Below, one piece after another: positions 19,927 through 47,101 of a stretch of 64,000 nt of DNA. Positions within the stretch are counted from its first letter, which is position 1, and every line of letters starts with the position of its first letter. The translations under genes were made by a program, and so were the position numbers. Origin of the DNA: Halarcobacter sp. (lineage in GTDB: Bacteria > Campylobacterota > Campylobacteria > Campylobacterales > Arcobacteraceae). The notes below the pieces were generated by a model that was not told the origin of the DNA, made no database searches, and was given only the letters and a program-made list of their open reading frames with translations. The stretch covers positions 124,001-188,000 of the forward strand of contig JAQYVX010000005.1 in the NCBI GenBank assembly GCA_030145305.1. Direction: 5' to 3'.

Positions 19927-22599
19927 TTAGGCTTTTAATGGATTGATTTTTTCTGGATCAATATTATATTTTTTCATTGCATCAAGTAAAACAGCTTTTT
20001 CAATTTTACCTTTTTTAGCTAATTGAGCTAAAGTAGTAAATACAACGAAATCAGTATCAACTTCAAAGAATGATCTTAAGTTTGCTCTAGAATCAGATCG
20101 TCCAAAACCATCAGTTCCTAGTGCTTTAAATGAACCACTTACAAAAGGAGCTAATTGCTCAGAATATGATTTCATATAATCAGTTGTTGAGATAATAATA
20201 TTTTCATTATCTTCCCCTAGAGCTTGATCAATATATGGAACTTTATCTTCTTCATTTACATGTAATAAGTTATATCTTTCTACATCTTGTGCTTCTCTTG
20301 TTAATTCATTATATGAAGTAACAGAATAAAGCTCAGAAGCGATTCCATATTCACTTGCTAGTACTTCAGAAGCTACTCTTACTTGTTCTAAAATTGAACC
20401 AGAACCTAATAGTTTTACTTTAAAGTCATTTTTAGCTTCTACATCTTTTAATTTATAAATACCTTTTAAGATACCCTCTTCTACATTTTCAGGCATTGCA
20501 GGTTGTTTATAATTTTCATTTAATGTTGTAAGATAGAAATATACATCTTCTTGTTTCTCACCATACATTCTATCAATTCCATTTTGAACAATAACAGCAA
20601 CTTCATAACCATATGTAGGGTCATAAGTAACACAATTTGGAATTGTATTTGCAATTATATGAGAATGTCCATCTTCATGTTGTAAACCTTCTCCATTTAA
20701 TGTAGTTCTACCTGAAGTTCCTCCAACTAAGAAACCTCTAGCCATTTGGTCTCCCGCAGCCCAACAAATATCACCTGTTCTTTGGAATCCAAACATTGAA
20801 TAGAAAATATAAAATGGAATCATAGGACAATCATTAACTGAATAAGAAGTTGCAGCTGCAACCCAAGAACCCATAGCTCCTAATTCATTAATACCTTCTT
20901 GAAGTACTTGACCTTTTTTATCTTCTTTATAATAAGCTACTTGATCTTTATCTTGTGGAATATATTTTTGACCTTCAGAAGAATAAATACCTAATTGTCT
21001 AAACATACCTTCCATTCCGAAAGTTCTTGCTTCATCAGGAACAATTGGAACAATTTTTTTACCGATTTCTTTATCTTTTACTAAGATATTTAATACTCTA
21101 ACAAACGCCATAGTAGTAGAAATTTCTCTATCACCACTTCCTTTTAAAACTGCATCAAATTTATCTAAAGTTGGAATATTTAAAGCTGTTGAAAATTTTG
21201 CTCTTCTTTGAGGAACAAAACCACCAAGTTCAGCTCTTCTTTCTTTCATATATTTCATTTCAGCAGAATCTTCATCTGGGATATAGTATTTTAAGTTATC
21301 AACATCTTCATCTGAAATAGGAATTTCAAATCTATCTCTAAATTGTCTTAATACTGATGTATCAACTTTTTTAACACCATGAGCAATATTTTTACCTTCA
21401 GCAGCTGCTCCCATTCCATAACCTTTAACAGTTTTTGCTAAAATAACAGATGGTTTACCTTTAGTATCTTGTGCTTTTTTGTATGCTGTATATACTTTAA
21501 TTGGATCATGACCACCTCTGTTTAATCTCCAGATTTCATCATCGCTCATATTTTCAACTAGTTTTGCAGTTTCAGGATGTTTATTAAAGAAATTCTCTCT
21601 TGTGTAAGCTCCACCTTTTTGTTTAAAGTTTTGGTACTCACCATCAACAGTCTCTTCCATTAATTGTTTTAACTTACCTGTTTTATCTTTATCTAATAAA
21701 GCATCCCAATGTCTACCCCAAACAACTTTAATAACTTCCCAACCATTTCCTCTGAAGTTACTTTCTAGTTCTTGAATTATTTTACCATTTCCACGAACAG
21801 GTCCGTCTAATCTTTGTAAGTTACAGTTTATAACAAATACTAAGTTATCTAAACCTTCACGTCCAGCAAGTCCAATTGCACCTAAAGACTCAGGCTCATC
21901 ACACTCACCATCACCCATGTAACAATATACTTTTTGATTACTACAGTCTTTTATTCCTCTATCTGTAAGATATTTTAAAAATCTTGCTTGATAAATTGCT
22001 TGAATTGGTCCAAGTCCCATTGATACAGTCGGAAACTGCCAATAGTTTGGCATAAGTTTAGGATGAGGATAAGAAGAAAGACCATCTTTAAATGCTTCTT
22101 GTCTAAAGTTATCCATTTGCTCTTCGCTTAATCGCCCTTCAATAAAAGATCTTGCATAAATACCTGGAGAAATATGACCTTGGAAAAATACTAAGTCTCC
22201 CCCATCTTTTTCATTTGGTGCTTTAAAGAAGTGATTAAAACCAACATCATATAATGTAGCTGAAGATTGAAATGAAGCAATATGACCACCAAGTTCTAAG
22301 TTTTTCTTAGAAGCTCTTAAAACCATTGCTTGGGCATTCCATCTAACAATAGATTTGATTTTTCTTTCTAAATCTCTGTTTCCTGGCATTTTTGGTTCTT
22401 GATTAACAGGAATTGTATTTAAATATGCAGTATTAGCACTATGCGGAATATCAGCACCATTTCTTCTAGCATTATCTATTAACTTTTCCAATAAGTAATG
22501 CGCACGCTCTGAACCTTCTTCTTTAATTACAACTTCTAAAGCGTCCATCCATTCTTGGGTTTCAACTGGATCGACATCATTTAAGTTTAAATCTGACAT
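19927..22599 (-). CDS. aceE: Pyruvate dehydrogenase E1, homodimeric type
   Basis: 890 residues, the usual length of the single-chain AceE found in proteobacteria. Visible family marks include the thiamine-diphosphate motif starting GDGECDEPES, FQGHISPGIYARSF near the N-terminus, NGEGLQHEDGHSH in the second half and GFGRSDSR near the C-terminus. It decarboxylates pyruvate and acetylates the lipoyl arm of AceF. The start is supported by an AAGGAAG ribosome site. It is the first gene of the PDH operon, and the 303-base upstream region holds operator-like palindromes. It is divergent from lipoylation genes. Confidence 0.96.
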   Translation of the reverse strand: MSDLNLNDVDPVETQEWMDALEVVIKEEGSERAHYLLEKLIDNARRNGADIPHSANTAYLNTIPVNQEPKMPGNRDLERKIKSIVRWNAQAMVLRASKKNLELGGHIASFQSSATLYDVGFNHFFKAPNEKDGGDLVFFQGHISPGIYARSFIEGRLSEEQMDNFRQEAFKDGLSSYPHPKLMPNYWQFPTVSMGLGPIQAIYQARFLKYLTDRGIKDCSNQKVYCYMGDGECDEPESLGAIGLAGREGLDNLVFVINCNLQRLDGPVRGNGKIIQELESNFRGNGWEVIKVVWGRHWDALLDKDKTGKLKQLMEETVDGEYQNFKQKGGAYTRENFFNKHPETAKLVENMSDDEIWRLNRGGHDPIKVYTAYKKAQDTKGKPSVILAKTVKGYGMGAAAEGKNIAHGVKKVDTSVLRQFRDRFEIPISDEDVDNLKYYIPDEDSAEMKYMKERRAELGGFVPQRRAKFSTALNIPTLDKFDAVLKGSGDREISTTMAFVRVLNILVKDKEIGKKIVPIVPDEARTFGMEGMFRQLGIYSSEGQKYIPQDKDQVAYYKEDKKGQVLQEGINELGAMGSWVAAATSYSVNDCPMIPFYIFYSMFGFQRTGDICWAAGDQMARGFLVGGTSGRTTLNGEGLQHEDGHSHIIANTIPNCVTYDPTYGYEVAVIVQNGIDRMYGEKQEDVYFYLTTLNENYKQPAMPENVEEGILKGIYKLKDVEAKNDFKVKLLGSGSILEQVRVASEVLASEYGIASELYSVTSYNELTREAQDVERYNLLHVNEEDKVPYIDQALGEDNENIIISTTDYMKSYSEQLAPFVSGSFKALGTDGFGRSDSRANLRSFFEVDTDFVVFTTLAQLAKKGKIEKAVLLDAMKKYNIDPEKINPLKA

Positions 22600-22902
22600 T
22601 TATTCTTCCTTGTAAATTTTTTCATTCATTTTGCAAATTATTACATTCATTTCTAATGAACATATGTTCACTATGTAGAAATCGTATACCTATTCGCACG
22701 ACTTCGTCGAATTGTGAGCATATGATACTTTCTTATTCTTAATTTATTTTTAATTAGAATACGCTAACTTATTATTTTAAGTTTACTTGTATACAAATGA
22801 AATTATAATGAAAAAAAGCGTATTATTTTATACTTTTTTTCTTTATTTATTTCTAAAGAATTATAAGTAATTTTAATATTATTAAATGGAAAACATAAAA
22901 AA
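22600..22902. promoter_or_regulatory. Divergent aceE / lipM intergenic region with operator-like palindromes
   Basis: 303 bases without a gene between two divergent operons that belong to the same pathway. It holds a perfect 14-base palindrome TGAACATATGTTCA at 22657-22670, a partial copy TGAGCATATGATAC at 22715-22728, and between them a hairpin with arms ATTCG (22692-22696) and CGAAT (22708-22712). The part nearest lipM is nearly pure AT and holds no further element I can support. These sites could bind one regulator controlling both operons. Confidence 0.5.
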
Positions 22903-23661
22903 ATGATAGAAGAAAAATCTATATTTAGAGTTATAAAAAACGATAAGAATAATGCAAAAAATAACATGGCAATTGATGAAGCACTTTTCTCATGTTTCAA
23001 AGAAAATGACAAGCCTATTTTAAGAGTTTATAATTGGACACAATCCTTTACTGTTGGTGTTTCTCAAGACTTTAAGGATTATTCTTCAAATGAAGAGACT
23101 AAAGACTTCAAAGATGATTATGCAAAAAGAATAACAGGTGGTGGAGTTTTATTTCATGGACATGACTTGTCGTATTCTTTAGTTATTCCAAGTCATTTAT
23201 TAGGAGAGTCAAATATAAAAAAATCTTATGAAAAAATATGTTCTTTTATATTGACTTTTTATAAGAACCTAGGATTAGATGCAAAATTTGCAAAAGATGA
23301 TGAAAATGTAATATTATCTAAAAATGAATATTGTCAAGTTGGTTTTGAAGCCTATGATATTTTAGTAAATAGTAAAAAAATAGGTGGAAATGCACAAAAG
23401 AGAACAAGAAAACTCATTTTTCAACATGGTTCTATACCATTAAAAAGTAAAAAAAGTGTAGATAATAGTCTAATTTATGATAAAAAAATTGGTTATACCT
23501 TAGAAGATTTTAATATAAATATTGATTTTGAAGAAGCAAAAATAAAATTAATTGAATCGTTTTATGAGACATTTAATGTTGATTTAATTTACTCTTCATT
23601 AACAACAGAAGAAAATGAAAAAAAGAATAAATTATTAAAGGATAAATATGACTACAAATGA
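22903..23661 (+). CDS. lipM: LipM-like octanoyltransferase / lipoate-protein ligase family
   Basis: 252 residues of the biotin/lipoate A/B ligase fold. RITGGGVLFHGHDLSYS at 76-92 matches the substrate-binding loop, and KKIGGNAQKR at 158-167 carries the conserved lysine. C144 in EYCQVGFEAYDI lies where LipM-type octanoyltransferases hold their acyl-cysteine; LplA ligases do not require this residue. I therefore favour octanoyl transfer from acyl carrier protein, the first step of lipoate synthesis, over salvage. The gene overlaps lipA by 14 bases, which fits. A salvage ligase role cannot be excluded. Confidence 0.75.
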   Translation: MIEEKSIFRVIKNDKNNAKNNMAIDEALFSCFKENDKPILRVYNWTQSFTVGVSQDFKDYSSNEETKDFKDDYAKRITGGGVLFHGHDLSYSLVIPSHLLGESNIKKSYEKICSFILTFYKNLGLDAKFAKDDENVILSKNEYCQVGFEAYDILVNSKKIGGNAQKRTRKLIFQHGSIPLKSKKSVDNSLIYDKKIGYTLEDFNINIDFEEAKIKLIESFYETFNVDLIYSSLTTEENEKKNKLLKDKYDYK

Positions 23662-24541
23662 AACAAAGGTTTCAACTAAAGTGCAATTTAAAAAGCCAGT
23701 TTGGTTAAGAAAAAAGTTAATCCCAAATGCTCAAAAAGAGATGGAAGATTTATTGGGAGAACATGGCTTACATACAATTTGTCAAGAAGCAAAATGTCCG
23801 AATATCTCAGAGTGTTATGCAAAGAAAAATGCTACATTTTTAATTTTAGGAAATATTTGTACAAGAAGATGTTCTTACTGTAACGTGCTTACAGGTCTTC
23901 CAACGGAAGTTGATTTAACAGAAGTTGAAAAAGTAACTGATTCAGTAAAAAGATTAGGTTTAAAATTTGTTGTAATTACAAGCCCGGCTAGAGATGATTT
24001 AAAAGATGGTGGAGCTGATCAGTTTTATAGAGTTACTCAAAATATTTTAAAAGAGTCTCCAGGAACTCAAGTTGAGATTTTAATTCCAGATTTCAAAGCA
24101 AAAGAAGAATCTTTACAAAAAGTAATTGATAGTGGCGCTGTTATAATTGGGCACAATGTAGAAACTGTTCCCTCACTATACAAAGTTAGAAAAAATGCAA
24201 CTTATCAAAGATCTATTGATGTTTTAAAAAGACTAAAAGAGCTTGGTGGCGATAAAATTAAAACAAAATCAGCTTTAATGGTAGGACTTGGAGAAACAGA
24301 AGAAGAAATGGTTCAAGTATTTAAAGACTTGATAGAAGTTGGATGTAAATTTTTGAGTATTGGTCAATATTTAGCTCCATCAGGAGATTATGCTGAAGTA
24401 AAAGAGTTTGTTAAACCTGAACAATTTGATAGATATAAAAAAATTGCATTAGATTTAGGATTTGAATTTGTTCATTCAACGCCATATGCAAGAAGTTCAT
24501 ATATGGCTCATGAATATTTAGCTAATCAAAAAACAGATTAA
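23648..24541 (+). CDS. lipA: Lipoyl synthase (radical SAM)
   Basis: 297 residues. The auxiliary iron-sulfur cluster cysteines are C45, C50 and C56 (CQEAKCPNISEC), and the radical-SAM cluster cysteines are C71, C75 and C78 (CTRRCSYC). The C-terminal RSSYMAHEYL carries the conserved serine that ligates the auxiliary cluster. It inserts two sulfur atoms into protein-bound octanoyl groups. Together with the coupled upstream gene it would lipoylate AceF encoded on the other strand. Confidence 0.96.
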   Translation: MTTNETKVSTKVQFKKPVWLRKKLIPNAQKEMEDLLGEHGLHTICQEAKCPNISECYAKKNATFLILGNICTRRCSYCNVLTGLPTEVDLTEVEKVTDSVKRLGLKFVVITSPARDDLKDGGADQFYRVTQNILKESPGTQVEILIPDFKAKEESLQKVIDSGAVIIGHNVETVPSLYKVRKNATYQRSIDVLKRLKELGGDKIKTKSALMVGLGETEEEMVQVFKDLIEVGCKFLSIGQYLAPSGDYAEVKEFVKPEQFDRYKKIALDLGFEFVHSTPYARSSYMAHEYLANQKTD

Positions 24542-24598: not shown

Positions 24599-25330
24599 TT
24601 ATAAATTACTACTATTAACTATTTGAAAAATCTTTTGTCCATAAAGATGCAAAGTTGTTTCATCTAATCTAATAGATAAACCTGAAATTCCTAAAGCTCC
24701 AACAAATTGATTTTTTTTATTAAAATAAGGAACAGCAACAGACTTTAAGCCAAATTCATGTTCTTCATTTCCAATAGCATAACCTCTTTCTTTTATTAAA
24801 GATATTTCTCTTAAAAGTTTGCCTTGACTCGTAATTGTATTATTTGTAAATTTTTTTAATTCTAAATTTTCAATATGAATATCACTATTAAAAGCTAAAA
24901 GTATTTTTCCAAAAGCATTTGAATGTAAAGGTGCCCTAGTTCCAATTGAATCCCTATTTTTTATTACTCTTGTCGAATTATCAACCTGATTTAAATTTAA
25001 AAAAGAGTTGTCATCAAGAATTCCAAAATATGAAGCTTCTTGTGTAAAATAAAAAATCTCATCTAAAAGAGTTTTTGTTTTTTCAATTAATTTTTCCCTA
25101 TCATCTTTTTTTACAATTTTTCTTGTTAAATCACTAAGTATTATATCTTTTGAATTTTCTTTATATTCTATAAATTCTGCTGTAATCAAAGTTTTTATGA
25201 GTCTTGACATTGTACTTTTATCTATATCAAGCTTTTGACATAATACATTAGCAGTTAAAGGTTTCTTAGAAATCATAATTTCTTTTAATATTTGTAAACC
25301 TTTTGTTAATGACTTATTTTGACTATACAC
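24599..25330 (-). CDS. IclR-family transcriptional regulator
   Basis: 243 residues. The N-terminal winged helix-turn-helix (about 5-62, DKSTMSRLIKTLITAEFIEY) is followed by the IclR effector domain with GTRAPLHSNAFGKILLAF, ERGYAIGNEEHEFGLKSVAVPYF and VGALGISG. IclR proteins usually control catabolism of carboxylic or aromatic acids and often act on divergent operons. Here it is divergent from the CoA-ester cluster at 25682-31447, with a 351-base gap containing an IclR-like palindrome, so regulation of that cluster is likely. The effector is unknown. Confidence 0.9.
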   Translation of the reverse strand: MYSQNKSLTKGLQILKEIMISKKPLTANVLCQKLDIDKSTMSRLIKTLITAEFIEYKENSKDIILSDLTRKIVKKDDREKLIEKTKTLLDEIFYFTQEASYFGILDDNSFLNLNQVDNSTRVIKNRDSIGTRAPLHSNAFGKILLAFNSDIHIENLELKKFTNNTITSQGKLLREISLIKERGYAIGNEEHEFGLKSVAVPYFNKKNQFVGALGISGLSIRLDETTLHLYGQKIFQIVNSSNL

Positions 25331-25681: not shown

Positions 25682-26815
25682 ATGAATTCATCTTTTGTAG
25701 ACTTATCAAAATTAACAGCTAATGATGATTTAACTCCAGTTCTTGGGGGAAAATGGCCAGGTATTCAAATATACTACCCACCAATTAAATTTAATCCATT
25801 AGATGGTACATATGAAAGTATGGAACAAGCAAAGCTAAGATTACAAAAACATGCTTATAAAACAAAAGCACATACTGTACTTTTTGATTTAGAAGATGGT
25901 TGTAGACAAAAAGCTATGAGTAGAGAGCTGTTAATTCAAGAGCTTCCAAAGTTTCCAGCAAGAGATTTTCAAATAGCAGTTAGAATTAATCCTTTTAGAA
26001 CTGATGAATACGAAGAAGACTTAAAAATGTTGAGACAAATTCATAAACATATCGATGCTATTGTTTTAGCAAAAGCTGGTGAAGTTTATGGTGACGCTGA
26101 AATTAGAGATTTATCTTCATGGTTAGTTTCTATTGGAAGTAATTTACAAATTCAACCAATTATTGAACATCCAAAGTCTCTTAAAATTGCAGATCAATTA
26201 ATGAGTCATTCAACAGTACAACACGTTGTATTTGGTATCCATGACTTTTCAAAAGCAATGTCTTATAAAATCACGCCAGAGGGTTGGATTGATGAATTAG
26301 AAACATTTTTCAATATCCTTACTATGGAAGCTAGAATCAAAGGTAAAGGTGTTATTGGAGGGGTTGAAGTATTATTAACTCCAAACTCATTACCAGATTC
26401 TTGTGTTGAGAAAAAAGATATTAGAAGATGGTTAGATTTACATGGTGATGATGCATCAAGACATGTTTATGCACATGCACAAAGAGAATATGCAATGGGA
26501 CTTACAGGAAAACAAGTAATTACTCCAAATCATATTAATATTTGTAAAGTTGCTTTTACTCCTTCTCCTAAAGAGATAAATAAAGATATAGCAATATTAA
26601 AAGAAGCTATTAAAACTGATGCATTATTAAGTGGCGCAATTAGATATGAAGGTGAGATGTTAGATCCACCAATGTTTGGTAAATCTTTACAAAACATTTT
26701 AAGAGCAGATGCTTTAAATAGCTTAAATCAAAATGATTATGAATTTGCATTAAAAGTATTAAATAGAATGCCATTACATACATTTAAAGAAAACTGGCCT
26801 TACGGTCAAATCTAA
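25682..26815 (+). CDS. HpcH/HpaI (CitE-like) CoA-ester lyase family enzyme
   Basis: 377 residues, a TIM-barrel C-C lyase of the CitE/malyl-CoA lyase family. Catalytic marks are intact: FDLEDG (D69, E71, D72), R101 in VRINPF, K131 in LAKAGE, metal-binding E162 in IEHPKS and D188 in FGIHDF. It is longer than typical CitE, with an N-terminal extension of about 60 residues and a C-terminal region ending FKENWPYGQI. Expected to cleave (or form) a 3-hydroxyacyl-CoA ester such as malyl-CoA or citramalyl-CoA, or to act as a malyl-CoA thioesterase; the exact substrate cannot be read. First gene of the operon, with a good AGAGGAAA ribosome site. Confidence 0.82.
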   Translation: MNSSFVDLSKLTANDDLTPVLGGKWPGIQIYYPPIKFNPLDGTYESMEQAKLRLQKHAYKTKAHTVLFDLEDGCRQKAMSRELLIQELPKFPARDFQIAVRINPFRTDEYEEDLKMLRQIHKHIDAIVLAKAGEVYGDAEIRDLSSWLVSIGSNLQIQPIIEHPKSLKIADQLMSHSTVQHVVFGIHDFSKAMSYKITPEGWIDELETFFNILTMEARIKGKGVIGGVEVLLTPNSLPDSCVEKKDIRRWLDLHGDDASRHVYAHAQREYAMGLTGKQVITPNHINICKVAFTPSPKEINKDIAILKEAIKTDALLSGAIRYEGEMLDPPMFGKSLQNILRADALNSLNQNDYEFALKVLNRMPLHTFKENWPYGQI

Positions 26816-26831
26816 TTAGGGAGTTGAAATT

Positions 26832-29351
26832 ATGAGTTCAAACATAAAAATTGAAGTACCTGAGTTTTTGAATATTGGTGTAGATTGTACATCAAAGCAT
26901 TTAGGAACATCAAAAGAAAATAGTACAGCAATGATAATTGAAGATGACAAACTTGGTACTGATGAAATTACATACAAAGAATTATCAGAGAGATCTGATC
27001 AAATATGTAACTTCCTAACAGGAATTGGAATTATGCCAAGAGATAGAGTATTAGTTTGTTTAAAAAACTCTTTAGCTTACCCTATCTCTTTCTTTGGAGC
27101 TATAAAAGCTGGAATTATTGCAGTTCCAACTTCTACACTTTTAAGTGGTTCAGAAGTTAAATATCTTGCAGAAGATTCACAAGCAAGTGCTATTGTATTA
27201 TCTGCATCTATGTATGAGAACCTAGTTCCTTATTTAGAAAATGTTGATAACTTAAAAACAATCATTATTGCTGGGATTGATTCAGTAGAAGAATTAAAAA
27301 GACCAAAAGGGATAAACCTTTATGCGTTAAGTGAGATTTTAAAAAATACTGATAAAACTCCAAATCATTATAAATCTAAATCAGGAGAACCTGCATATTT
27401 AGTATATACTTCAGGAACAACAGGTTATCCAAAGGGAGTTTTACATTCACATAGATCACTTGTAGGAAGAACTCCTGCTACTGAGTATTGGTTTAACTTT
27501 AAAGAGAATGATAGAATTATGCATTCTGGTAAATTTAATTGGACTTATGTCTTAGGTTCTGCTCTTATGGATCCATTATATAATGGTCATACTGTAATTG
27601 CTTATGAAGGTGTAAATGATGCAGGAACGTGGATTGAATTAATTAAAAAACACAAATGTACTATGTTTATTGGTGTTCCAACTATCTATAGACAGATTAT
27701 TCAAAAAACAGAATTTTCTGCAAAAGATTGCCCAAGTTTGAGATATTGTATGAGTGCGGGTGAGCATTTATCAGATGAAATGATTGGCTTATGGAGAGAT
27801 AGATTTAAGCAAGATATTTATGAAGCAATTGGAATGAGTGAGTGTTCTTACTATATTTCACATTCTATAAATAACCCAATTAGACCTGGTTCTGCTGGCT
27901 TTGTTCAACCAGGACACACTGTAAAATTAATTGATCCTGATACTTTAGAAGAAGTTGGAACTGAAGAAGAAGGCATGATTTGTATTGGAGAAGATGATCC
28001 AGGATTATTCTTAGAATATTGGCAATTAGAGGATGAAACGACTAAAGCTAAACATGATGGATATTTCTTTACAGGGGATTATGCTAAAAAAGATAAAGAT
28101 GGTTATATCTGGTTTATTGGTAGAAAAGACGATATTATCAACACTTTTGGCTTTAGAGTATCTCCACATGAAATTGAAAGAGTTGTAAAAACTCATAACG
28201 CTGTTGCAGATTGTGTTGCTTTTGGATTAGAAATTGGAAAAGATAAAGTAATTGTTGCAATTGCTGTAATTGGACATGAAAAATTAAGTGAAGAAAAAGA
28301 ACAAGAAATTTTAAAATTTTCACAAGATAATTTAGCAAAATATAAAGCACCTAAAACAATATTTGGTCTAAATGATTATCCAAGAACTAAAAATGGAAAA
28401 GTTCTAAGAAAACAACTTGTAAAACAATTACATGAAAAATATCATGCAATTGAAACTGGTGAAGAGATTATTAAATACAAAGCAAGAAGATCAATGTTAT
28501 TTGTACCTGCATATAATAAAAAGTTTGTACAAAAAGCAAAATCAGTATTAGCTGATTCTATTGTATTTGATTTAGAAGCTATTTTACAAGAACAAAGAGA
28601 AATAGCTAGAAATGTTATAAAAGAAGTATATGCTGAAGAAGGTTCTAAATTTGGAGATTCTGAAAGAATTTTAAAAGTTAATTTCTTAGGAAGTGAAGAC
28701 TTTAAAAAAGATATGGAATTAGCAGCTGATATTGAAATTGATGCAATCTTATTTTCAAGAATTGAAACAAAAGAGCAAGTTTTAGAAGCAGAAAAAGCAT
28801 TAATAGAACTTAATCCAAATCTTACAATGATGCTAATGATTGAAACACCACTTTCAATTTTAAATTCACCTGATATTTGTGCGGCAAGTTCAAAACTTGA
28901 AGTTATAGTTGTAGGTTCTAATACTCTTGCTAATAGACTTCAAATTGATATTAGAAGAGGTTCTAAAGCTATGTTTAATTACCTAGCTAGAATTGCTTTA
29001 TCTGCTAAAGCATATGGAAAAACAGTTATTGATGGACCTCATAATGATGTTCATGATGAGTTTGCTTGTGAAGATTCAACTAAAGATGCCTTTAACTTAG
29101 GTTTTGATGGTAAATCATTAATTCATCCGGTACAAGTTGAATATATTAATGATATCTTTACTCCAAAACAAAAAGAAGTAGAAGACTATGAAGAAATGAT
29201 TAGCCTATACGAAAAAGCTGCAAAAGAAGGTAAAGAGGTTATTCAATATAAAGATAAACTTGTTGACAAATGTAGAATTGTTTGGGCTAAAAAAATGATT
29301 ACATTATATGAAACATATAAATCTTTAGGTCAAAACCTATTTAATAAGTAA
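26832..29351 (+). CDS. Acyl-CoA synthetase fused to a degenerate CitE-like domain
   Basis: 839 residues. Residues 1 to about 535 are an AMP-forming acyl-CoA synthetase most like the benzoate/cinnamate-CoA ligase group: P-loop YTSGTTGYPKG at 192-202, A5 motif YEAIGMSE, A7 TGDY, A8 GRKDDIINTFGFR, and catalytic K523 in RTKNGKVLRK. Residues 551-839 are a CitE/HpcH-type barrel, but its key residues are changed: DLED is DLEA (580-583), the VRIN arginine is K615, the PK lysine is R643, and the metal-binding GxED is GSNT (695-698). Only E671 in the IET motif remains. The barrel is probably not a lyase. The natural acid substrate is unknown; the operon suggests a C5 dicarboxylate. Confidence 0.85.
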   Translation: MSSNIKIEVPEFLNIGVDCTSKHLGTSKENSTAMIIEDDKLGTDEITYKELSERSDQICNFLTGIGIMPRDRVLVCLKNSLAYPISFFGAIKAGIIAVPTSTLLSGSEVKYLAEDSQASAIVLSASMYENLVPYLENVDNLKTIIIAGIDSVEELKRPKGINLYALSEILKNTDKTPNHYKSKSGEPAYLVYTSGTTGYPKGVLHSHRSLVGRTPATEYWFNFKENDRIMHSGKFNWTYVLGSALMDPLYNGHTVIAYEGVNDAGTWIELIKKHKCTMFIGVPTIYRQIIQKTEFSAKDCPSLRYCMSAGEHLSDEMIGLWRDRFKQDIYEAIGMSECSYYISHSINNPIRPGSAGFVQPGHTVKLIDPDTLEEVGTEEEGMICIGEDDPGLFLEYWQLEDETTKAKHDGYFFTGDYAKKDKDGYIWFIGRKDDIINTFGFRVSPHEIERVVKTHNAVADCVAFGLEIGKDKVIVAIAVIGHEKLSEEKEQEILKFSQDNLAKYKAPKTIFGLNDYPRTKNGKVLRKQLVKQLHEKYHAIETGEEIIKYKARRSMLFVPAYNKKFVQKAKSVLADSIVFDLEAILQEQREIARNVIKEVYAEEGSKFGDSERILKVNFLGSEDFKKDMELAADIEIDAILFSRIETKEQVLEAEKALIELNPNLTMMLMIETPLSILNSPDICAASSKLEVIVVGSNTLANRLQIDIRRGSKAMFNYLARIALSAKAYGKTVIDGPHNDVHDEFACEDSTKDAFNLGFDGKSLIHPVQVEYINDIFTPKQKEVEDYEEMISLYEKAAKEGKEVIQYKDKLVDKCRIVWAKKMITLYETYKSLGQNLFNK

Positions 29352-29360
29352 GGATTAGTA

Positions 29361-30443
29361 ATGTCTAAAATAAGTACTAAGATTAGCTCAAAAATAAATA
29401 TTGGAAACTTTTTTGAAGACTTTTCTATTGGTCAAAAAATTGTTCACCCACTTCCTAGAACAATTAGTGAAGGCGATGTATCTTTATATATTGCTTTTAC
29501 TGGTTCTAGATTTGCCCTTCATTCATCGGATATAGTTGCCAATGAAATGGGATATGAGAAAAGACCTATTGATGATACTTTAATGTTTCATTTAACATTT
29601 GGAAAATCTGTACAAGATGTATCTTTAAATGCAATTGCAAATTTAGGTTATGCTGAGATTGCTTTTCCTAATCCAGTATATGTGGGAGATACAGTTTCAA
29701 TGACATCAACAGTTATTGGACTAAAAGAAAACTCAAGTGGAAAAAGTGGAGTTGTATATGTTCACTCTATTGGATATAACCAAAATCATGATGAAGTTCT
29801 AAATTTCAAAAGATGGGTTATGGTTCATAAGAAAGATAAAGAAACTAAATCAGGAATCAATGAAGTTCCTACTTTTGCAAAAACTACTCCGATTTTAGAT
29901 GAGATTAATCTTCCTAAAATCAAGTGTGTAGATACTAATGCAAGTGGTGGAAAATTCTTTTTTGAAGATTATGAAGCTGGGGAGAGATTAAATCATCCAG
30001 ATGGTATTACAGTTGATAATAGTGATCATACACTAGCAACTAAGTTATACCAAAACAATGCAAAAGTACATTTTAATGATCACATGATGAAAAGCTCACC
30101 AATGGGTCAAAGGTTAATGTATGGGGGAATTGTTATTTCAATGGCAAGAGCATTATCATTTAATGGTTTTCAAAATGCTCAGAATATATATGCAATAAAT
30201 AGTGGCGCCCATGCAAACCCTACATATGCAGGGGATACAATTTATGCCTATACGGAAGTTTTAGAAACTATTGATCATAAAAGAGACGATATTGGATTAT
30301 TAAGATTAAGAACGATTGCTATTACAAATCAAAAATCTTCTGAAATTGAAAATCCAAAAGATGAAAATGGTAAGTATTTAAAAAATGTAGTACTTGACTT
30401 GGATTATACAGTTGTTATTCCAAAGAAAAAAACAAAAAAATAA
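29361..30443 (+). CDS. mch: MaoC-type double hotdog hydratase, mesaconyl-CoA hydratase-like
   Basis: 360 residues forming two hotdog domains. It closely resembles mesaconyl-CoA hydratase (beta-methylmalyl-CoA dehydratase) of the ethylmalonyl-CoA pathway: GNFFEDFSIGQ, the HALYSS-like FALHSSD, VQDVSLNAIANLGYAE, NSSGKSGVVYVHS and the second-half HFNDHMM. That family interconverts mesaconyl-CoA and erythro-beta-methylmalyl-CoA. It lies between the ligase fusion (9 bases) and the malyl-CoA lyase-like gene (20 bases), which are the steps expected before and after it. Assigned from remembered family sequence, so substrate specificity is inferred. Confidence 0.82.
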   Translation: MSKISTKISSKINIGNFFEDFSIGQKIVHPLPRTISEGDVSLYIAFTGSRFALHSSDIVANEMGYEKRPIDDTLMFHLTFGKSVQDVSLNAIANLGYAEIAFPNPVYVGDTVSMTSTVIGLKENSSGKSGVVYVHSIGYNQNHDEVLNFKRWVMVHKKDKETKSGINEVPTFAKTTPILDEINLPKIKCVDTNASGGKFFFEDYEAGERLNHPDGITVDNSDHTLATKLYQNNAKVHFNDHMMKSSPMGQRLMYGGIVISMARALSFNGFQNAQNIYAINSGAHANPTYAGDTIYAYTEVLETIDHKRDDIGLLRLRTIAITNQKSSEIENPKDENGKYLKNVVLDLDYTVVIPKKKTKK

Positions 30444-30463
30444 ATAAAAAAAAGGAAAATATT

Positions 30464-31447
30464 ATGACACACCCTAACGAAGCACTATTTGGTTCAGGAA
30501 ACAATTTACCAATTATCCCATCTTGTGAGCATTTTGCAGGTAGCGAAAAGCTAATCTTAAAAGGTTTCCAAATGCAAGAAAAATTAGGACCTGTTTTTGA
30601 TATAACTTGTGATTGTGAAGATGGAGCTGAAACTGGTAAAGAAGTGGAACATGCAAATATGATTGTAAGAGTTGTTAACTCTGAAGCAAACAAATATGCA
30701 ATGGCAGGAACGAGAATTCATGATTTTGATCATCCAGATTGGAGACAAGATATTGATATTTTAGTACCAGGAGCTGGTGAAAAACTTGCATATATTACTA
30801 TTCCAAAATCAACTTCATATGAAGATGCTAAAACTCAAGTTGAATATATTCAAGCTAAATGTAAAGAAGCTGGAATTTCAAGAGAAATTCCTATTCACGT
30901 TTTAATTGAAACTCATGGAGCATTAAGAGATGTAGAAAAAACTGCAACTTTGCCTTGGGTACAAGTTCTTGACTTTGGATTAATGGACTTTGTTTCAGGT
31001 TACCAAGGTGCAATTCCTGCATCAAATATGAGATCACCTGGTCAATTTGATCATAGATTAATTGGTGCTGCTAAAGCAAAAGTTGTTCAAGCTGCTTTAG
31101 AAAACCATATTATTCCTTGTCACAATGTTACTTTAGATTTAAAAAATCCATACCAAACATATAAAGACGCTGAAAGAGCTAAAAATGAATTTGGATTCTT
31201 AAGAATGTGGTCAATTTACCCAACACAAGTAACAGCAATTGTTGATGCAATGAAACCTGACTTTACAGAACTTGAAGCTGCACAAAATATTTTATTAGCT
31301 GCACAAGATGCTGAATGGGGACCTATTCAATATGATGGTGAATTACATGATAGAGCAACATATAGATATTTTTGGGAATTAGTTCAAAGAGCAAATTTCT
31401 CTGGAACAAAATTACAAGAAGAAGTTTCAAAAAGATTCTTTTCTTAA
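30464..31447 (+). CDS. Malyl-CoA/beta-methylmalyl-CoA lyase-like enzyme (HpcH/HpaI family)
   Basis: 327 residues. Intact family residues: D50, E52 and D53 in CDCEDG, R84 in TRIHD, K115 in IPKST, E149 in IETHG and D175 in GLMDF. Cleaves 3-hydroxyacyl-CoA esters; with a mesaconyl-CoA hydratase just upstream, cleavage of beta-methylmalyl-CoA to glyoxylate and propionyl-CoA is the simplest reading. The conserved segments SCEHFAGSEKL and MRSPGQFDHRL are characteristic of a subgroup I recall from betaproteobacteria beside Mch-like genes. It differs clearly in sequence from the two other CitE-type domains in the operon. Last operon gene before a perfect hairpin. Confidence 0.84.
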   Translation: MTHPNEALFGSGNNLPIIPSCEHFAGSEKLILKGFQMQEKLGPVFDITCDCEDGAETGKEVEHANMIVRVVNSEANKYAMAGTRIHDFDHPDWRQDIDILVPGAGEKLAYITIPKSTSYEDAKTQVEYIQAKCKEAGISREIPIHVLIETHGALRDVEKTATLPWVQVLDFGLMDFVSGYQGAIPASNMRSPGQFDHRLIGAAKAKVVQAALENHIIPCHNVTLDLKNPYQTYKDAERAKNEFGFLRMWSIYPTQVTAIVDAMKPDFTELEAAQNILLAAQDAEWGPIQYDGELHDRATYRYFWELVQRANFSGTKLQEEVSKRFFS

Positions 31448-31719: not shown

Positions 31720-32562
31720 ATGAATAAATATAATATAAATGTAGAAGAATTAAGAGATTATTTAGGATTTGGTGTTGCAGGAAATTTTGCAAACCACTTA
31801 GGAGAAGCTGGAGAAGCTGATGAGTTTTCAGTAATAAAAACAGAAGATAAAGATGCACCAAAAGGACTTTTCCCTTTTTATATCCCAAATCACGATACTT
31901 TTTTAGGCGAATTCCCTATTTGTACAGATAAAATCAATCACAATGATATGGAACATTTACAAGTTGAAGCAGAAGTTGGATTAATTTGTGATTTTGTTTA
32001 TGAAAATGAAAAACTAGTAGATTTAAAACCAAGGTTTTTTGGCGCATTTAATGACTGTTCTAACAGAATTCAAGATGGAAATAAACTAAGCACAAAAAAA
32101 AATTGGGGCTCTAATTCTAAAGGAATAGCAACAGAATTTATAGAAATTGATAATTTTGAAGAAAATGGAATTCTATCAAGATTTCATATTGCTTCATTTG
32201 TAAGAAGAAATGGTGTTCTAAAAGATTATGGGACAATAAGTGCTGTAAAATCGTACTCATACTTCTTTAATCAATTAAAAGATTGGATGATTGATAAATT
32301 TAATACTCAAGAAGATTCTGGTCCTTTAGAAGAATTACCTCCTTTTTTAAAAGATATAAAGAAACATAAAGGTCTATTAATAGCAGCAGGAGCAACGGCA
32401 TATACAGATTTTGGGAAACACAATTTTTTAGAAAAAGGAGATGAAATTTATATATATGTATATAATGCCCATTTTCACTCTTTTGAAGATATTATGCAAG
32501 ATATGTCAGGAATGGATTTGCACTTGTCACAATGTAGTAAATTACACCAAATTGTGGAATAA
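31720..32562 (+). CDS. DUF5718 family protein
   Basis: 280 residues. Matches my recollection of the DUF5718 family known from Campylobacterota: GFGVAGNFANHLGEAGEA, APKGLFPFYIPNHDTFLG, FGAFNDCSNR, KKNWGSNSKGI and AAGATAYTDFGKHNFLEKGDE. The layout of acidic residues (EAEVGLICDF) resembles fumarylacetoacetate-hydrolase folds, which handle 2-keto acids, but I cannot confirm a metal site. There is no signal peptide. It is separated from the upstream operon by a hairpin and 270 bases. The reaction is unknown. Confidence 0.8.
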   Translation: MNKYNINVEELRDYLGFGVAGNFANHLGEAGEADEFSVIKTEDKDAPKGLFPFYIPNHDTFLGEFPICTDKINHNDMEHLQVEAEVGLICDFVYENEKLVDLKPRFFGAFNDCSNRIQDGNKLSTKKNWGSNSKGIATEFIEIDNFEENGILSRFHIASFVRRNGVLKDYGTISAVKSYSYFFNQLKDWMIDKFNTQEDSGPLEELPPFLKDIKKHKGLLIAAGATAYTDFGKHNFLEKGDEIYIYVYNAHFHSFEDIMQDMSGMDLHLSQCSKLHQIVE

Positions 32563-35248: not shown

Positions 35249-36505
35249 ATGAGTCTAAAAAAAATTGTTTTTCCAATATCATCTTTATTTTTTGCAATAG
35301 GTTTTTTAGCTATTGGATACGGTATGATTTTAACATTTGTAGGCGTATATTTAAAGGAATTAGAAGTTAGTAATACTGTAATTGGTATTATAAATGCCTC
35401 ATTTTTTTTAGGAGCAGTTTTATCTTCAATATTTAGCCAAAAATTTATATCCACAGTTGGACATATCAGAAGTTTTGCAGCCTTTGCAGCTCTTATGGTA
35501 ATAACATTTCTAATGCACTCTCTTTTCTTTAATGAAGTATTATGGGCTATTTTGAGATTACTTTCTGGTTTTTCTTTTTATGCTCTTTTGATTATATTAG
35601 AAAGCTGGTTAAATGAAAAAAGTTCTGAGGAAAGTAGAGGACGAATATTAGCTATTTATACAATAGTTTTCTATCTAGCAACTGCACTAGGACAACTTTT
35701 TTTAAATATAGATGATCACTTTAAAGAATATATTTTTACAATAGGTTCTACTCTTGTTTTATTTTCTGTAATTTTTATTTCTCTAACTAAAATAAAAGAA
35801 CCTATTTTAGAACCTTTTGAAAAACTTAGTTTTCCAAAAATTTTTTCTATAGTTCCACTTGCAACTGTTACAAGTTTTATTAGTGGTTTTTTAGTAGGTG
35901 GTTTTTTCTCAATGGCCCCTGTTTATATTCTTATGCAAGGTAGCTCTGTTGAACTTGTTTCAAAGTTTATGATAGTTTCAATTATAGGTGGACTAATTTC
36001 ACAATGGCCAGTAGGAATACTTTCAGATAGATTTGGAAGAAGAAAACTTATTTCTATAACTTCATTTCTTAGTGCCGTAACTTCCTTTTTATTTATATTA
36101 TATGCCAACGAAGAGATTTATTTATACACACTAGGATTTTGTTTAGGATTGTCAGTATTTACCCTATATCCTTTAGCCGTAGCAAGAGCAAATGATGTTG
36201 TAGATGAAAATAAAGATATTGTAGAGATAAGTAGATCTTTACTATTTACTTATGGAATTGGCTCATTTCTTGCTCCACTTATAATAGGTGTGGGATTAAG
36301 TCTAACTCCTAACTTCTTATTTATAAGTTTCTTCATTTTATGCCTTATTTTAAGTATCTATGCCTTAACACAAGAAAGAGTAAAAGACAAAGACTTAAGT
36401 GTCTTTGTAAACATTCCTGTTACTTCAGGAGCAGAATTACCACAACTAGATCCAAGACAAGATGAAGAGTATGCTCACGACTCAAATAATTCTTATTTTC
36501 AGTAA
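35249..36505 (+). CDS. MFS transporter, YcaD-like
   Basis: 418 residues with about 12 membrane segments. The motif between helices 8 and 9, GILSDRFGRRKLIS, and the first-half equivalent around KFISTVGHIRSFA fit the major facilitator family. The C-terminal tail FVNIPVTSGAELPQLDPR is characteristic of the YcaD-type group. The substrate is unknown. It is monocistronic, with an AAGGT ribosome site, and is followed by a strong terminator. Confidence 0.85.
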   Translation: MSLKKIVFPISSLFFAIGFLAIGYGMILTFVGVYLKELEVSNTVIGIINASFFLGAVLSSIFSQKFISTVGHIRSFAAFAALMVITFLMHSLFFNEVLWAILRLLSGFSFYALLIILESWLNEKSSEESRGRILAIYTIVFYLATALGQLFLNIDDHFKEYIFTIGSTLVLFSVIFISLTKIKEPILEPFEKLSFPKIFSIVPLATVTSFISGFLVGGFFSMAPVYILMQGSSVELVSKFMIVSIIGGLISQWPVGILSDRFGRRKLISITSFLSAVTSFLFILYANEEIYLYTLGFCLGLSVFTLYPLAVARANDVVDENKDIVEISRSLLFTYGIGSFLAPLIIGVGLSLTPNFLFISFFILCLILSIYALTQERVKDKDLSVFVNIPVTSGAELPQLDPRQDEEYAHDSNNSYFQ

Positions 36506-36574: not shown

Positions 36575-37138
36575 TTATACATCAACCATAGCTTTAAAAT
36601 AAGCTCCACATCTACCTATATTTTCAATATTAACATGAGAACGCTCATCTAATCTTCCATCTTCCAAATATTGTTTTTTTATTTCTAAAATAATCGGAGT
36701 AGTTTTTCCTGGAAGCTCAACTTTTTGATAGAAGTCACAAAAAAGTGCAGTTTGACTTGAACTTATCATAGGAGGATACTCTTCTAAAGGTCTTTGAACA
36801 TCAATCTCATATTCTTTGATTTCACTTTCTTCTTTTCCAAGCATAGTTGCACATAGTTTTACATCTTCCATATTGTCTTTATTTACAAAACAAATTGTGG
36901 CTTTTTTATGTTTCAAAATATTATATAAAGAGTCTTTTGGTACTCCTTTTTCTTTTTCACCAATTGATACTATTACAACTGCTGGATCTGAAGAAAGAGG
37001 TATAAAATATGAAAAAGGAGCAGCATTTATAATACCCTCATCTTCCGTTACAATCCAAGCTATTGGTCTTGGCACAACAGTGTCTGACATAATTTTATAT
37101 CTATTCAAATCATTTACATCTTTATAATCAATAATCAT
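36575..37138 (-). CDS. Flavin reductase family protein
   Basis: 187 residues, a split-barrel FMN-binding protein. TVVPRPIAWIVTEDEGIINAAPFSYFIPLSSDPAVVIVSIG-type N-terminal sequence (about 19-58) is the family hallmark, with residues PRPIAW and NAAPFS contacting flavin. The C-terminal RCGAYFKA is also typical. Expected to bind FMN and reduce it or use it in a redox role; the partner is unknown. It is monocistronic and convergent with the MFS gene. Confidence 0.85.
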   Translation of the reverse strand: MIIDYKDVNDLNRYKIMSDTVVPRPIAWIVTEDEGIINAAPFSYFIPLSSDPAVVIVSIGEKEKGVPKDSLYNILKHKKATICFVNKDNMEDVKLCATMLGKEESEIKEYEIDVQRPLEEYPPMISSSQTALFCDFYQKVELPGKTTPIILEIKKQYLEDGRLDERSHVNIENIGRCGAYFKAMVDV

Positions 37139-44070: not shown

Positions 44071-45561
44071 ATGGGAAAAATAACAGAACAAGATATCATT
44101 GATAGTGTTGCTGACGCATGTCAGTATATTTCTTTTTATCATCCAGAAGATTTTATCAAAGGAATGGTAGAGGCATATGAAACAGAAAAAGGTGAAGCTG
44201 CTAAGAATGCTATAGGACAAATTTTGATTAATTCAAAAATGTGTGCTATGGGTCATAGACCTTTATGTCAAGATACAGGAAGTGTAAATGTTTTTATAAA
44301 AGTTGGTACAAAAGCAAACCTTGATATTACAAATGAACTAGAAGATATTATAAATGCTGGTGTTGCAAAAGGTTATACAGATCCTGATAATACTTTAAGA
44401 TACTCAGTAGTTACAGACCCAGCAGGTGAGAGAAAAAATACAAAAAATAATACTCCCGCAGTTATTCACTTTACAGTTGATAATTCAGATACTATAGATA
44501 TAACTGTTGCAGCAAAAGGTGGAGGAAGTGAAAACAAATCTAAATTTGCTGTTTTAAATCCAAGTGATAGTGTTTATGATTGGGTTATGGAAAATGTAAG
44601 ACAAATGGGTGCTGGTTGGTGTCCTCCAGGAATCTTAGGTATTGGTATTGGTGGAAATCCAGAAAAATCAATGTTACTTGCAAAAGAATCATTAATGGGT
44701 AGCGTTGATATTCATGAATTAAAACAAAGAGGTCCTAAAAATGCCTTAGAAGAATTAAGATTAAAACTATATGAAGATGTTAATAAAATAGGTATTGGAG
44801 CACAAGGACTTGGTGGATTAACAACTGTTTTAGATGTTAAAATCTTAGATTATCCATGTCATGCAGCATCTCTTCCTGTTGCTATGATTCCAAACTGTGC
44901 AGCAACTAGACATATTCACTTTGAATTAAAAGGTGATGGACCAGCTAGATTTAATAAGCCAGATTTAGATCTTTGGCCAGATATTGAATTACCTATGGAT
45001 ACTATTAAAAGAGTAAATATTGAAGATTTAACAAAAGAGAATTTATCTCAATTTAAATCAGGAGATACATTACTTTTATCAGGGAAAATTTTAACAGCAC
45101 GTGATGCGGCGCATAAGAAAATTGTAGAGTACAAAAATGCAGGAAAAGCACTTCCAAATGGTGTTGATTTAAAAGATAGATTTATTTACTACGTGGGTCC
45201 TGTAGATCCTGTTAGAGATGAAAAAGTAGGACCAGCGGGACCAACTACATCAACAAGAATGGATAAATTTACAAAAGATATGATGGAAATTGGAATTATG
45301 GGAATGATTGGTAAAGCTGAAAGAAAGCAACCAACAATTGATTTAATTAAAGAATATAAATCAATGTACCTAATTGCAACAGGTGGAGCTGCTTATTTAA
45401 TTTCTCAATCTATTAAAGATGCAAAAGTTATTGCTTTTGAAGAAATGGGAATGGAAGCTATTTATGAGTTTGAAGTAAAAGATATGCCAGTTACTGTAGC
45501 TGTTGATACTGAAGGTGTTTCAATACATACAACAGGACCAGCTCAATGGAGAACTATCTAA
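44071..45561 (+). CDS. fumA: Class I fumarate hydratase (iron-sulfur)
   Basis: 496 residues, a single-chain class I fumarase. Cluster cysteines are visible in HRPLCQDTGS, GAGWCPPGIL and PNCAATRHIHF; other family marks are AKGGGSENKS and GPVDPVRDEKVGPAGPTTSTRMD. It hydrates fumarate to malate; class I enzymes of this family can also hydrate mesaconate, which is of interest given the CoA-ester cluster in this window. It uses an oxygen-sensitive 4Fe-4S cluster. A class II fumarase follows 139 bases later. Confidence 0.94.
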   Translation: MGKITEQDIIDSVADACQYISFYHPEDFIKGMVEAYETEKGEAAKNAIGQILINSKMCAMGHRPLCQDTGSVNVFIKVGTKANLDITNELEDIINAGVAKGYTDPDNTLRYSVVTDPAGERKNTKNNTPAVIHFTVDNSDTIDITVAAKGGGSENKSKFAVLNPSDSVYDWVMENVRQMGAGWCPPGILGIGIGGNPEKSMLLAKESLMGSVDIHELKQRGPKNALEELRLKLYEDVNKIGIGAQGLGGLTTVLDVKILDYPCHAASLPVAMIPNCAATRHIHFELKGDGPARFNKPDLDLWPDIELPMDTIKRVNIEDLTKENLSQFKSGDTLLLSGKILTARDAAHKKIVEYKNAGKALPNGVDLKDRFIYYVGPVDPVRDEKVGPAGPTTSTRMDKFTKDMMEIGIMGMIGKAERKQPTIDLIKEYKSMYLIATGGAAYLISQSIKDAKVIAFEEMGMEAIYEFEVKDMPVTVAVDTEGVSIHTTGPAQWRTI

Positions 45562-45700: not shown

Positions 45701-47101
45701 ATGAATAATTATAGAATTGAAAAAGATACAATGGGAGAAATACAAGTCCCAAATGATAAATACTGGGGTGCACAAACTCAAAGAAGTATAGAAAATTTTC
45801 CTATTGGAAATGAAACTATGCCAAAAGAAATTATTGAAGGCTTTGCATATTTAAAAAAAGCTTGTTCTGCTGTAAACAATAACTTAAAAAGATTAGATGA
45901 TACAAAATATACTGCTATTAGTAGTGCTTGCCAGGAAGTAATAGAAGGCAAACTCAAAGATAACTTTCCTCTTGTAGTTTGGCAAACAGGTTCAGGAACA
46001 CAATCTAATATGAATATAAATGAAGTAGTTGCAGCAAGAGCTACAGAAATTTTAGGAAGTAATTTTAGAAAAGAAAAATTAATTCATCCAAATGATGATG
46101 TTAATAAAGGACAAAGTTCAAATGACACATACCCAACTGCAATGAGAATAGCTTTTGTTTTAGAAATACAAAAACAATTAATCCCAGCAATTAAAAAACT
46201 AAAAAAGACATTTGAAGAAAAAAGCAATGAGTTTAAAGATATAGTAAAAATTGGAAGAACACATCTCCAAGATGCAACACCTCTTACTCTTGGACAAGAA
46301 TTAAGTGCTTATGTTGATATGTTAAATAAAGCCTTAAGCCAGATTGATGATAGCATGAAATACATCACTGAACTTGCTATTGGAGGAACAGCTGTTGGAA
46401 CAGGACTTAATTCTCATCCTGATTTTTCGCCTATGGTTTGTGAAGTTTTAAATAAACAAACAAAAACGAAATATAAATTTAAATCTCATCCAAATAAATT
46501 TCACGCTTTAACATCACATGATGGGGAAGTAGTATTAAGTGGAGTTTTAAATGCTCTTGCTTCAAATCTTATGAAAATAGCAAATGATATAAGGTGGCTC
46601 TCTTCTGGACCTAGATGTGGAATTGGTGAACTTACTATTCCTGCAAATGAACCTGGAAGTTCTATAATGCCTGGGAAAGTAAATCCTACACAAAGTGAAG
46701 CTATGACTATGGTTGCTGTGCAAGTTATGGGAAATCATACAACAGTCTCAGTAAGTGCTAGTCAAGGAAATTTTGAATTAAATGTATTTAAGCCTGTCAT
46801 TGCTTATAATATTTTACAATCAATAAAATTACTTAGTGATACAATGATTGCATTTAATGACAATTGTGCCATAGGAATACAGCCAAATAAAAAAAATATA
46901 GATAAATACTTAAATGATTCATTAATGCTTGTAACGGCACTAAATCCATATATTGGTTATGAAAATGCTGCACTTATAGCTAAAACTGCACATAAAAATG
47001 GTACAACATTAAAAGAAGAAACACTTAAACTTGGGCTTTTAAGTGAAGAAGAGTTTGAGAAATATGTAAGACCAGAAGAAATGATATATCCAAAAATATA
47101 A
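45701..47101 (+). CDS. fumC: Class II fumarate hydratase
   Basis: 466 residues, full length for FumC. Marks are TGSGTQSNMNINEV, HPNDDVNKGQSSND, the catalytic-loop signature GSSIMPGKVNPTQ near 317-329 and an N-terminal YWGAQTQRS. It needs no iron-sulfur cluster, so it works under oxygen or iron limitation where the class I enzyme next door fails. An AAGGAT ribosome site precedes the ATG. Confidence 0.96.
   Translation: MNNYRIEKDTMGEIQVPNDKYWGAQTQRSIENFPIGNETMPKEIIEGFAYLKKACSAVNNNLKRLDDTKYTAISSACQEVIEGKLKDNFPLVVWQTGSGTQSNMNINEVVAARATEILGSNFRKEKLIHPNDDVNKGQSSNDTYPTAMRIAFVLEIQKQLIPAIKKLKKTFEEKSNEFKDIVKIGRTHLQDATPLTLGQELSAYVDMLNKALSQIDDSMKYITELAIGGTAVGTGLNSHPDFSPMVCEVLNKQTKTKYKFKSHPNKFHALTSHDGEVVLSGVLNALASNLMKIANDIRWLSSGPRCGIGELTIPANEPGSSIMPGKVNPTQSEAMTMVAVQVMGNHTTVSVSASQGNFELNVFKPVIAYNILQSIKLLSDTMIAFNDNCAIGIQPNKKNIDKYLNDSLMLVTALNPYIGYENAALIAKTAHKNGTTLKEETLKLGLLSEEEFEKYVRPEEMIYPKI

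Follow-up and report, generated by a model that had tools for sequence, protein, structure and literature searches.

The window analysed here is a 64,000-nucleotide stretch of a Halarcobacter sp. contig (JAQYVX010000005.1); among named organisms, this genome is closest to Arcobacter MAGs and Poseidonibacter. The window carries four genes, g1 to g4, arranged head to tail on the forward strand and separated by 16, 9, and 20 bases. The first, g1 (25682..26815), encodes a 377-aa CitE-like CoA-ester lyase that matches PF03328 (HpcH_HpaI) at 36.7 bits. The second, g2 (26832-29351), encodes a fusion of an AMP-forming acyl-CoA ligase (aa 1-540; 26832..28451) and a CitE domain with a degenerate metal site (aa 546-839; 28467..29351; PF03328, 99.4 bits). 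It is followed by g3 (29361..30443), a 360-aa member of the mesaconyl-CoA hydratase/beta-methylmalyl-CoA dehydratase family, and g4 (30464..31447), a 327-aa CitE-like lyase of the 3qqw/3r4i type (HpcH_HpaI, 33.6 bits). An earlier sequence-only reading had placed here a ligase, a mesaconyl-CoA-hydratase-like gene, CitE-type genes, and a divergent IclR gene with short gaps, and all of these are present. However, the ligase had been listed singly. Since g2 is a ligase-CitE fusion, the operon has three CitE-type domains rather than two. A class I fumarase gene at 44071..45561 had also been left unconnected to the cluster.

The IclR-family regulator gene (24599..25330, reverse strand, GTG start; PF01614 at 120.8 bits, and PF09339) diverges from g1 across a gap of 351 bases. 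Its best NCBIfam match is BhcR, but at 121.5 bits against a cut-off of 350 it is not BhcR itself. Just 5' of this gene, at 19927-24541, the window encodes an AceE-type pyruvate dehydrogenase, a lipoate ligase, and a lipoyl synthase, and these genes hold the same place in four related loci (L022, L024, L027, and L035).

Crystal structures of malyl-CoA lyases have defined the residues conserved in CitE-like enzymes: two Mg-binding acids, an N-terminal Glu-Asp pair, a catalytic Arg, and a C-terminal Asp, the last with the exception of one thioesterase group (PMC3832036). Both g1 and g4 have this set, namely the Mg-binding Glu and Asp, the DLED Glu-Asp pair, the Arg, and the C-terminal Asp. In g1, the active-site motifs DLED, RIN, IIEHP, FGIHDF, and EMLD are retained at residues aligned with 5ugr and 4l9y. 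In g4, the corresponding motifs are CED, TRIHD, IETH, GLMDF, and ELHD. g4 matches 3qqw over its full length (E 7.6e-135), its Arg, Glu, Asp, and Asp positions align with those of 4l9y, and it is 59-61% identical to Cupriavidus proteins. g1 is 73-94% identical to its full-length orthologues, and a plasmid search with g1 returned distant matches only (24-27% identity). Neither protein reaches the profile of the characterised malyl-CoA/beta-methylmalyl-CoA lyases (NF041626, cut-off 500 bits; g1 19.5 and g4 38.2 bits) or that of RipC/citramalyl-CoA lyase (NF038242, cut-off 375 bits; g1 53.9 and g4 36.9 bits), and both also fall far under the curated cut-off for characterised CitE. By sequence, g1 and g4 are members of uncharacterised branches of the CitE superfamily. 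The structure model of g1 was left out of this reasoning because of its pLDDT of 57.6.

The CitE domain of g2 is different. The Mg-binding Asp is replaced with Thr698 in the window and with Lys, Asn, or Thr across all 30 members compared, while the Asp of the DLED motif is replaced with Ala583 here and with Ala, Gly, or Met across the same 30. The domain thus lacks the Mg-binding Asp and the second DLED acid of the superfamily residue set in every member. The catalytic Arg is Lys615 in the window, and Lys also in loci L049 and L050, and remains Arg in the other members. The domain is also more variable than its partners, with 73 of 294 positions invariant among the 30 members, compared with 269 of 540 in the ligase part and 225 of 377 in g1. 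Because metal-site residues conserved in the superfamily are gone, the fused domain is probably not a working lyase. It may bind a CoA ester or have a structural role.

The N-terminal part of g2 passes the cut-offs of the AMP-ligase families (PF00501, 249.7 bits; PF13193, 39.6 bits). g3 passes the mesaconyl-CoA hydratase family PF19315 (90.2 bits, cut-off 26.5), is matched over its full length by 4e3e (E 3.6e-110) and by 8hgn, deposited as "Beta-methylmalyl-CoA dehydratase" (E 3.1e-101), and is about half identical to enzymes that bear this name. It is not an equivalog of the haloarchaeal 2-methylfumaryl-CoA hydratase (NF041625, 89.4 bits against a cut-off of 560).

All 29 named loci that g2 recovered (L022-L050), a few of them cut by contig ends, have the order g1-g2-g3-g4, and such a recurrence is not due to chance. 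These loci come from Poseidonibacter, Aliarcobacter, Malaciobacter, Sulfurospirillum, and one MAG labelled Thermodesulfovibrionales. Within Campylobacterota, where the distribution was sampled (other phyla being poorly covered), 39 of 397 genomes match the fused CitE domain strongly (E below 1e-100). The fusion is found in 35 of the 43 sampled Arcobacteraceae genomes and in four genomes of one other family. An IclR homologue diverges from g1 in 11 of the 29 named loci. The loci L025, L028-L034, and L039-L045, of the Aliarcobacter and Poseidonibacter lekithochrous type, mostly have no adjoining IclR gene, and their g1-g4 order is unchanged. In the MAG locus L022 (10521-11585), a single in-frame stop interrupts g3, and either the gene is broken or the sequence is in error there.

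Several genes accompany the cluster. The class I (Fe-S) fumarase of the window (44071..45561, forward strand; PF05681, PRK06246/TIGR00722), a putative mesaconase, lies 12.6 kb downstream of g4 and is the sole PF05681 match in the genome. In 15 named loci, the gene directly 3' of g4 encodes a class I fumarase that shares 77-90% identity with this copy. Mesaconate is hydrated by the class I fumarases of E. coli and Burkholderia that have been tested (PMC4682846). Next to the class I gene, the window also encodes the class II fumarase FumC (45701-47101), leaving the class I enzyme available for another role. In a Sulfurospirillum genome, the class I fumarase again lies 3' of g4, with one flavin-reductase-like gene between them, and prpE-prpB-prpC-prpD are located ~5 kb upstream of the IclR gene. 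In locus L048, g4 is followed by prpE, the alpha subunit of a class I fumarase, a prpB-prpC fusion, and prpD. This locus is possibly mis-binned, leaving its phylum uncertain, which does not affect the gene order.

In 20 of 29 loci, the cluster is accompanied by a gene for a DUF5718 protein (31720..32562, forward strand; PF18985, 321 bits in the window). Its structure model (pLDDT 78.7) has FAH-type proteins as its 27 best PDB fold matches and resembles Cg1458, YisK, and fumarylpyruvate hydrolase, and the protein retains E-x-E (83, 85) and Asp112 in a pattern that recalls the FAH metal ligands. Based on this model, DUF5718 is probably an FAH-fold metalloenzyme similar to oxaloacetate decarboxylases or acylpyruvate hydrolases. 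Any more specific role, for instance in the decarboxylation of oxaloacetate, is guesswork. The window also encodes a 187-aa flavin-reductase-like protein (36575-37138), and a similar gene lies near the cluster in L023, L024, L027, L028, L034, L037, L038, L047, L126, and L128. On a plasmid of Sphingobium sp. TomTYG74 (L103, 3735-6978), a g4-like lyase lies beside genes annotated as mch and alpha-methylacyl-CoA racemase, an arrangement suggesting that other phyla have a related module in which a CoA-transferase performs the activation.

The sequence-only reading had also called for a search for propionyl-CoA assimilation genes, and these have been found. The genome encodes a methylcitrate cycle of the AcnD/PrpF type, prpB-prpC-acnD-prpF, on a single contig (C65), each gene scoring above its curated cut-off. 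PrpD is absent from the genome, with AcnD and PrpF in its place. Among the Arcobacteraceae, PrpF is present in 23 of 23 fusion-bearing genomes and in one of eight fusion-free genomes (Fisher p = 3e-6, partly reflecting shared descent). In the Sulfurospirillaceae, PrpB is common in genomes that have no cluster (11 of 16). As PrpF occurs without the fusion in the former and PrpB without the cluster in the latter, the linkage to propionate is not exclusive.

Other routes that handle the same intermediates were looked for in the genome. The glyoxylate cycle has neither of its two enzymes here: isocitrate lyase is represented only by a partial match that is PrpB, as is also the case throughout 61 Arcobacteraceae genomes, and malate synthase, found over most of its profile in five of these 61 genomes (and partially in a sixth, G396), is not encoded. 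The methylaspartate cycle is ruled out, with no match to methylaspartate ammonia-lyase (PF07476) in the genome, and the methylmalonyl-CoA route has no methylmalonyl-CoA mutase. The only CoA_transf_3 protein of the genome is the L-carnitine CoA-transferase CaiB, so the Mct-dependent 3-hydroxypropionate bi-cycle is unavailable, and a route through free mesaconate with a ligase fits. CaiB, confirmed by family match, lies in a probable carnitine operon (L130, G000:C4:303000-315000), among genes that by eye resemble those for an acyl-CoA dehydrogenase, a CoA ligase, and a transporter.

The suggestion that such a pathway had not been described for this phylum does not hold. In Arcobacter butzleri RM4018, Miller et al. 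(2007) described ab1917-ab1921 with the same layout and order: a CitE-like gene, the ligase-CitE fusion, the hydratase, a second CitE-like gene, and a class I fumarase (PMC2147049). They predicted an interconversion of glyoxylate and propionyl-CoA with pyruvate and acetyl-CoA next to the methylcitrate pathway, drew methylcitrate and citramalate cycles for this organism, and noted that A. butzleri does not grow on acetate, propionate, or both (PMC2147049). The window differs in the 12.6 kb that separate the fumarase from g4 and in its divergent IclR gene. Later experimental work or an enzyme activity for the operon was not found in the literature searched, which largely excluded subscription journals. 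The operon is therefore real and conserved, and it has mostly been published already as a prediction that is extended here. The additions are the degenerate metal site of the fused domain, which Miller et al. do not mention, the linkage of the class I fumarase to g4, the linkage to prp genes in two lineages, the missing Mct and glyoxylate shunt enzymes, and the family-wide distribution.

Four known systems share parts of this chemistry. The citramalate cycle proposed for Rhodospirillum rubrum, itself unproven, passes through citramalate, mesaconate, mesaconyl-CoA, and methylmalyl-CoA to glyoxylate and propionyl-CoA (PMC8307300). There, propionyl-CoA continues via succinyl-CoA, whereas the present genome has the methylcitrate cycle and no methylmalonyl-CoA mutase. 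The second half of the Chloroflexus 3-hydroxypropionate bi-cycle (Mcl, Mch, Mct, and Meh) also uses an Mch-type hydratase and CitE-type lyases and joins propionyl-CoA and glyoxylate with acetyl-CoA and pyruvate. On the other hand, Mct is absent from the genome studied here and the C4-CoA hydratase Meh from the operon, which would work with a ligase and free acids. Itaconate degradation (Ict/Ich/Ccl, RipABC) has the same succession of activation, MaoC-type hydration, and CitE-type cleavage, but the operon has an AMP ligase instead of a CoA-transferase, and g3 and the lyases are under the RipB and RipC cut-offs. In the use of mesaconate by Burkholderia xenovorans, a class I fumarase acts as a mesaconase that feeds citramalyl-CoA cleavage (PMC4682846). 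Activation in that case is by a CoA-transferase, and the beta-methylmalyl-CoA branch is lacking.

Based on these observations, we propose that the operon provides the C5 branch of a pathway of the citramalate type, with free mesaconate as an intermediate, and we give this proposal an about even chance of being right. The ligase half of g2 would use ATP to convert mesaconate to mesaconyl-C1-CoA, g3 would hydrate this to beta-methylmalyl-CoA, and g4 would split the latter into propionyl-CoA and glyoxylate. The class I fumarase would interconvert mesaconate and (S)-citramalate, and g1 would connect citramalyl-CoA (or malyl-CoA) with acetyl-CoA and pyruvate (or glyoxylate). Propionyl-CoA would then enter the methylcitrate cycle (PrpB, PrpC, AcnD, and PrpF). 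The CitE half of g2 would be a leftover or structural CoA-binding domain rather than a lyase, and the IclR regulator would sense one of the pathway acids.

This proposal is supported by the family of g3, the fixed gene order, the linkage to the class I fumarase and prp genes, and the similar assignment by Miller et al. It is weakened by the scores of g1 and g4, which are far below curated cut-offs, and by the lack of a malate synthase or isocitrate lyase that would handle glyoxylate. The conversion of mesaconate or a related acid to glyoxylate and propionyl-CoA, as suggested by the sequence-only reading, agrees with the set of reactions, but the usual sink for glyoxylate, malate synthase, is missing. 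The least secure points are which of the two cleavages belongs to g1 and which to g4, and in which direction the pathway runs overall. We infer both substrate and direction from sequence, which alone cannot settle either. A further reason for caution about firm pathway claims from genes alone is Desulfurella, in which a methylcitrate operon is present yet unused during growth on propionate (PMC11861179).

A ligase that spends ATP on mesaconate would favour the direction of propionyl-CoA and glyoxylate. Miller et al. (2007) argued from growth data for the reverse, in which glyoxylate and propionyl-CoA are both consumed to give acetyl-CoA and pyruvate by way of beta-methylmalyl-CoA, mesaconyl-CoA, mesaconate, citramalate, and citramalyl-CoA. 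The genes would be the same, every step save that of the ligase is reversible, and prpE and methylcitrate genes lie near the cluster in two lineages. However, the ATP-dependent ligase would then have to use citramalate, a mesaconyl-CoA thioesterase that the operon does not supply would be needed, and the outcome would be redundant with the methylcitrate cycle of the same genome. We consider this direction possible but rather unlikely. The operon could instead serve to break down a C5 acid acquired from the environment, whether mesaconate, citramalate, or beta-methylmalate, and stand apart from central carbon cycling. IclR control would suit this, and so would the neighbourhoods of the g4 relatives in Variovorax (a CoA-transferase, TctC-type binding proteins, and IclR) and of the Sphingobium relative beside mch and the racemase-annotated gene. 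Growth on such an acid, as implied by the original idea of C5-acid degradation, is nevertheless one option only, since the genes next to the cluster in the window include no evident uptake system for C5 dicarboxylates. None was seen by eye in the flanks inspected, and the MFS gene at 35249 matched at the general MFS level only. The near-universal conservation in a family of differing habitats suggests a housekeeping role, and purely external catabolism is in our view improbable. Still more improbable is that the enzymes perform related chemistry on another 2-enoyl or 3-hydroxy dicarboxyl-CoA, giving glyoxylate or pyruvate and an acyl-CoA. The placement of g1 and g4 in uncharacterised CitE branches leaves room for this, as does a ligase specificity that is unreadable from sequence, but the resemblance of g3 to named beta-methylmalyl-CoA dehydratases speaks against it, and the linkage to the class I fumarase and prp genes indicates C5 and C3 acids.

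The citramalate-type pathway could be extended to a bypass that operates without isocitrate lyase and would represent a distinct anaplerotic cycle across the Arcobacteraceae. In its first part, the operon and the class I fumarase would convert acetyl-CoA and pyruvate to propionyl-CoA and glyoxylate. In the second, PrpC, AcnD, PrpF, and PrpB would convert propionyl-CoA and oxaloacetate to pyruvate and succinate. With pyruvate cancelling, acetyl-CoA and oxaloacetate would yield succinate and glyoxylate, which is the net reaction of the glyoxylate shunt, and one of the CitE-type lyases could additionally form malyl-CoA from glyoxylate. The genes fit this extension, but a NifJ-type pyruvate:ferredoxin oxidoreductase is also present in the genome and in many relatives (13 of 23 fusion-bearing family members checked), which makes it less likely that the operon exists for anaplerosis alone. 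We regard the bypass with considerable doubt.

With a ligase joined to a lyase domain whose metal site is broken, g2 offers a neat opportunity to ask why a dead enzyme domain should be retained. If the proposed pathway works, the operon would provide a concrete genetic system for the citramalate cycle, which has remained unproven since the 1990s, and the whole family, from Aliarcobacter to the free-living relatives of the sulfur cycle, would join acetyl-CoA, pyruvate, glyoxylate, and propionyl-CoA via free mesaconate.
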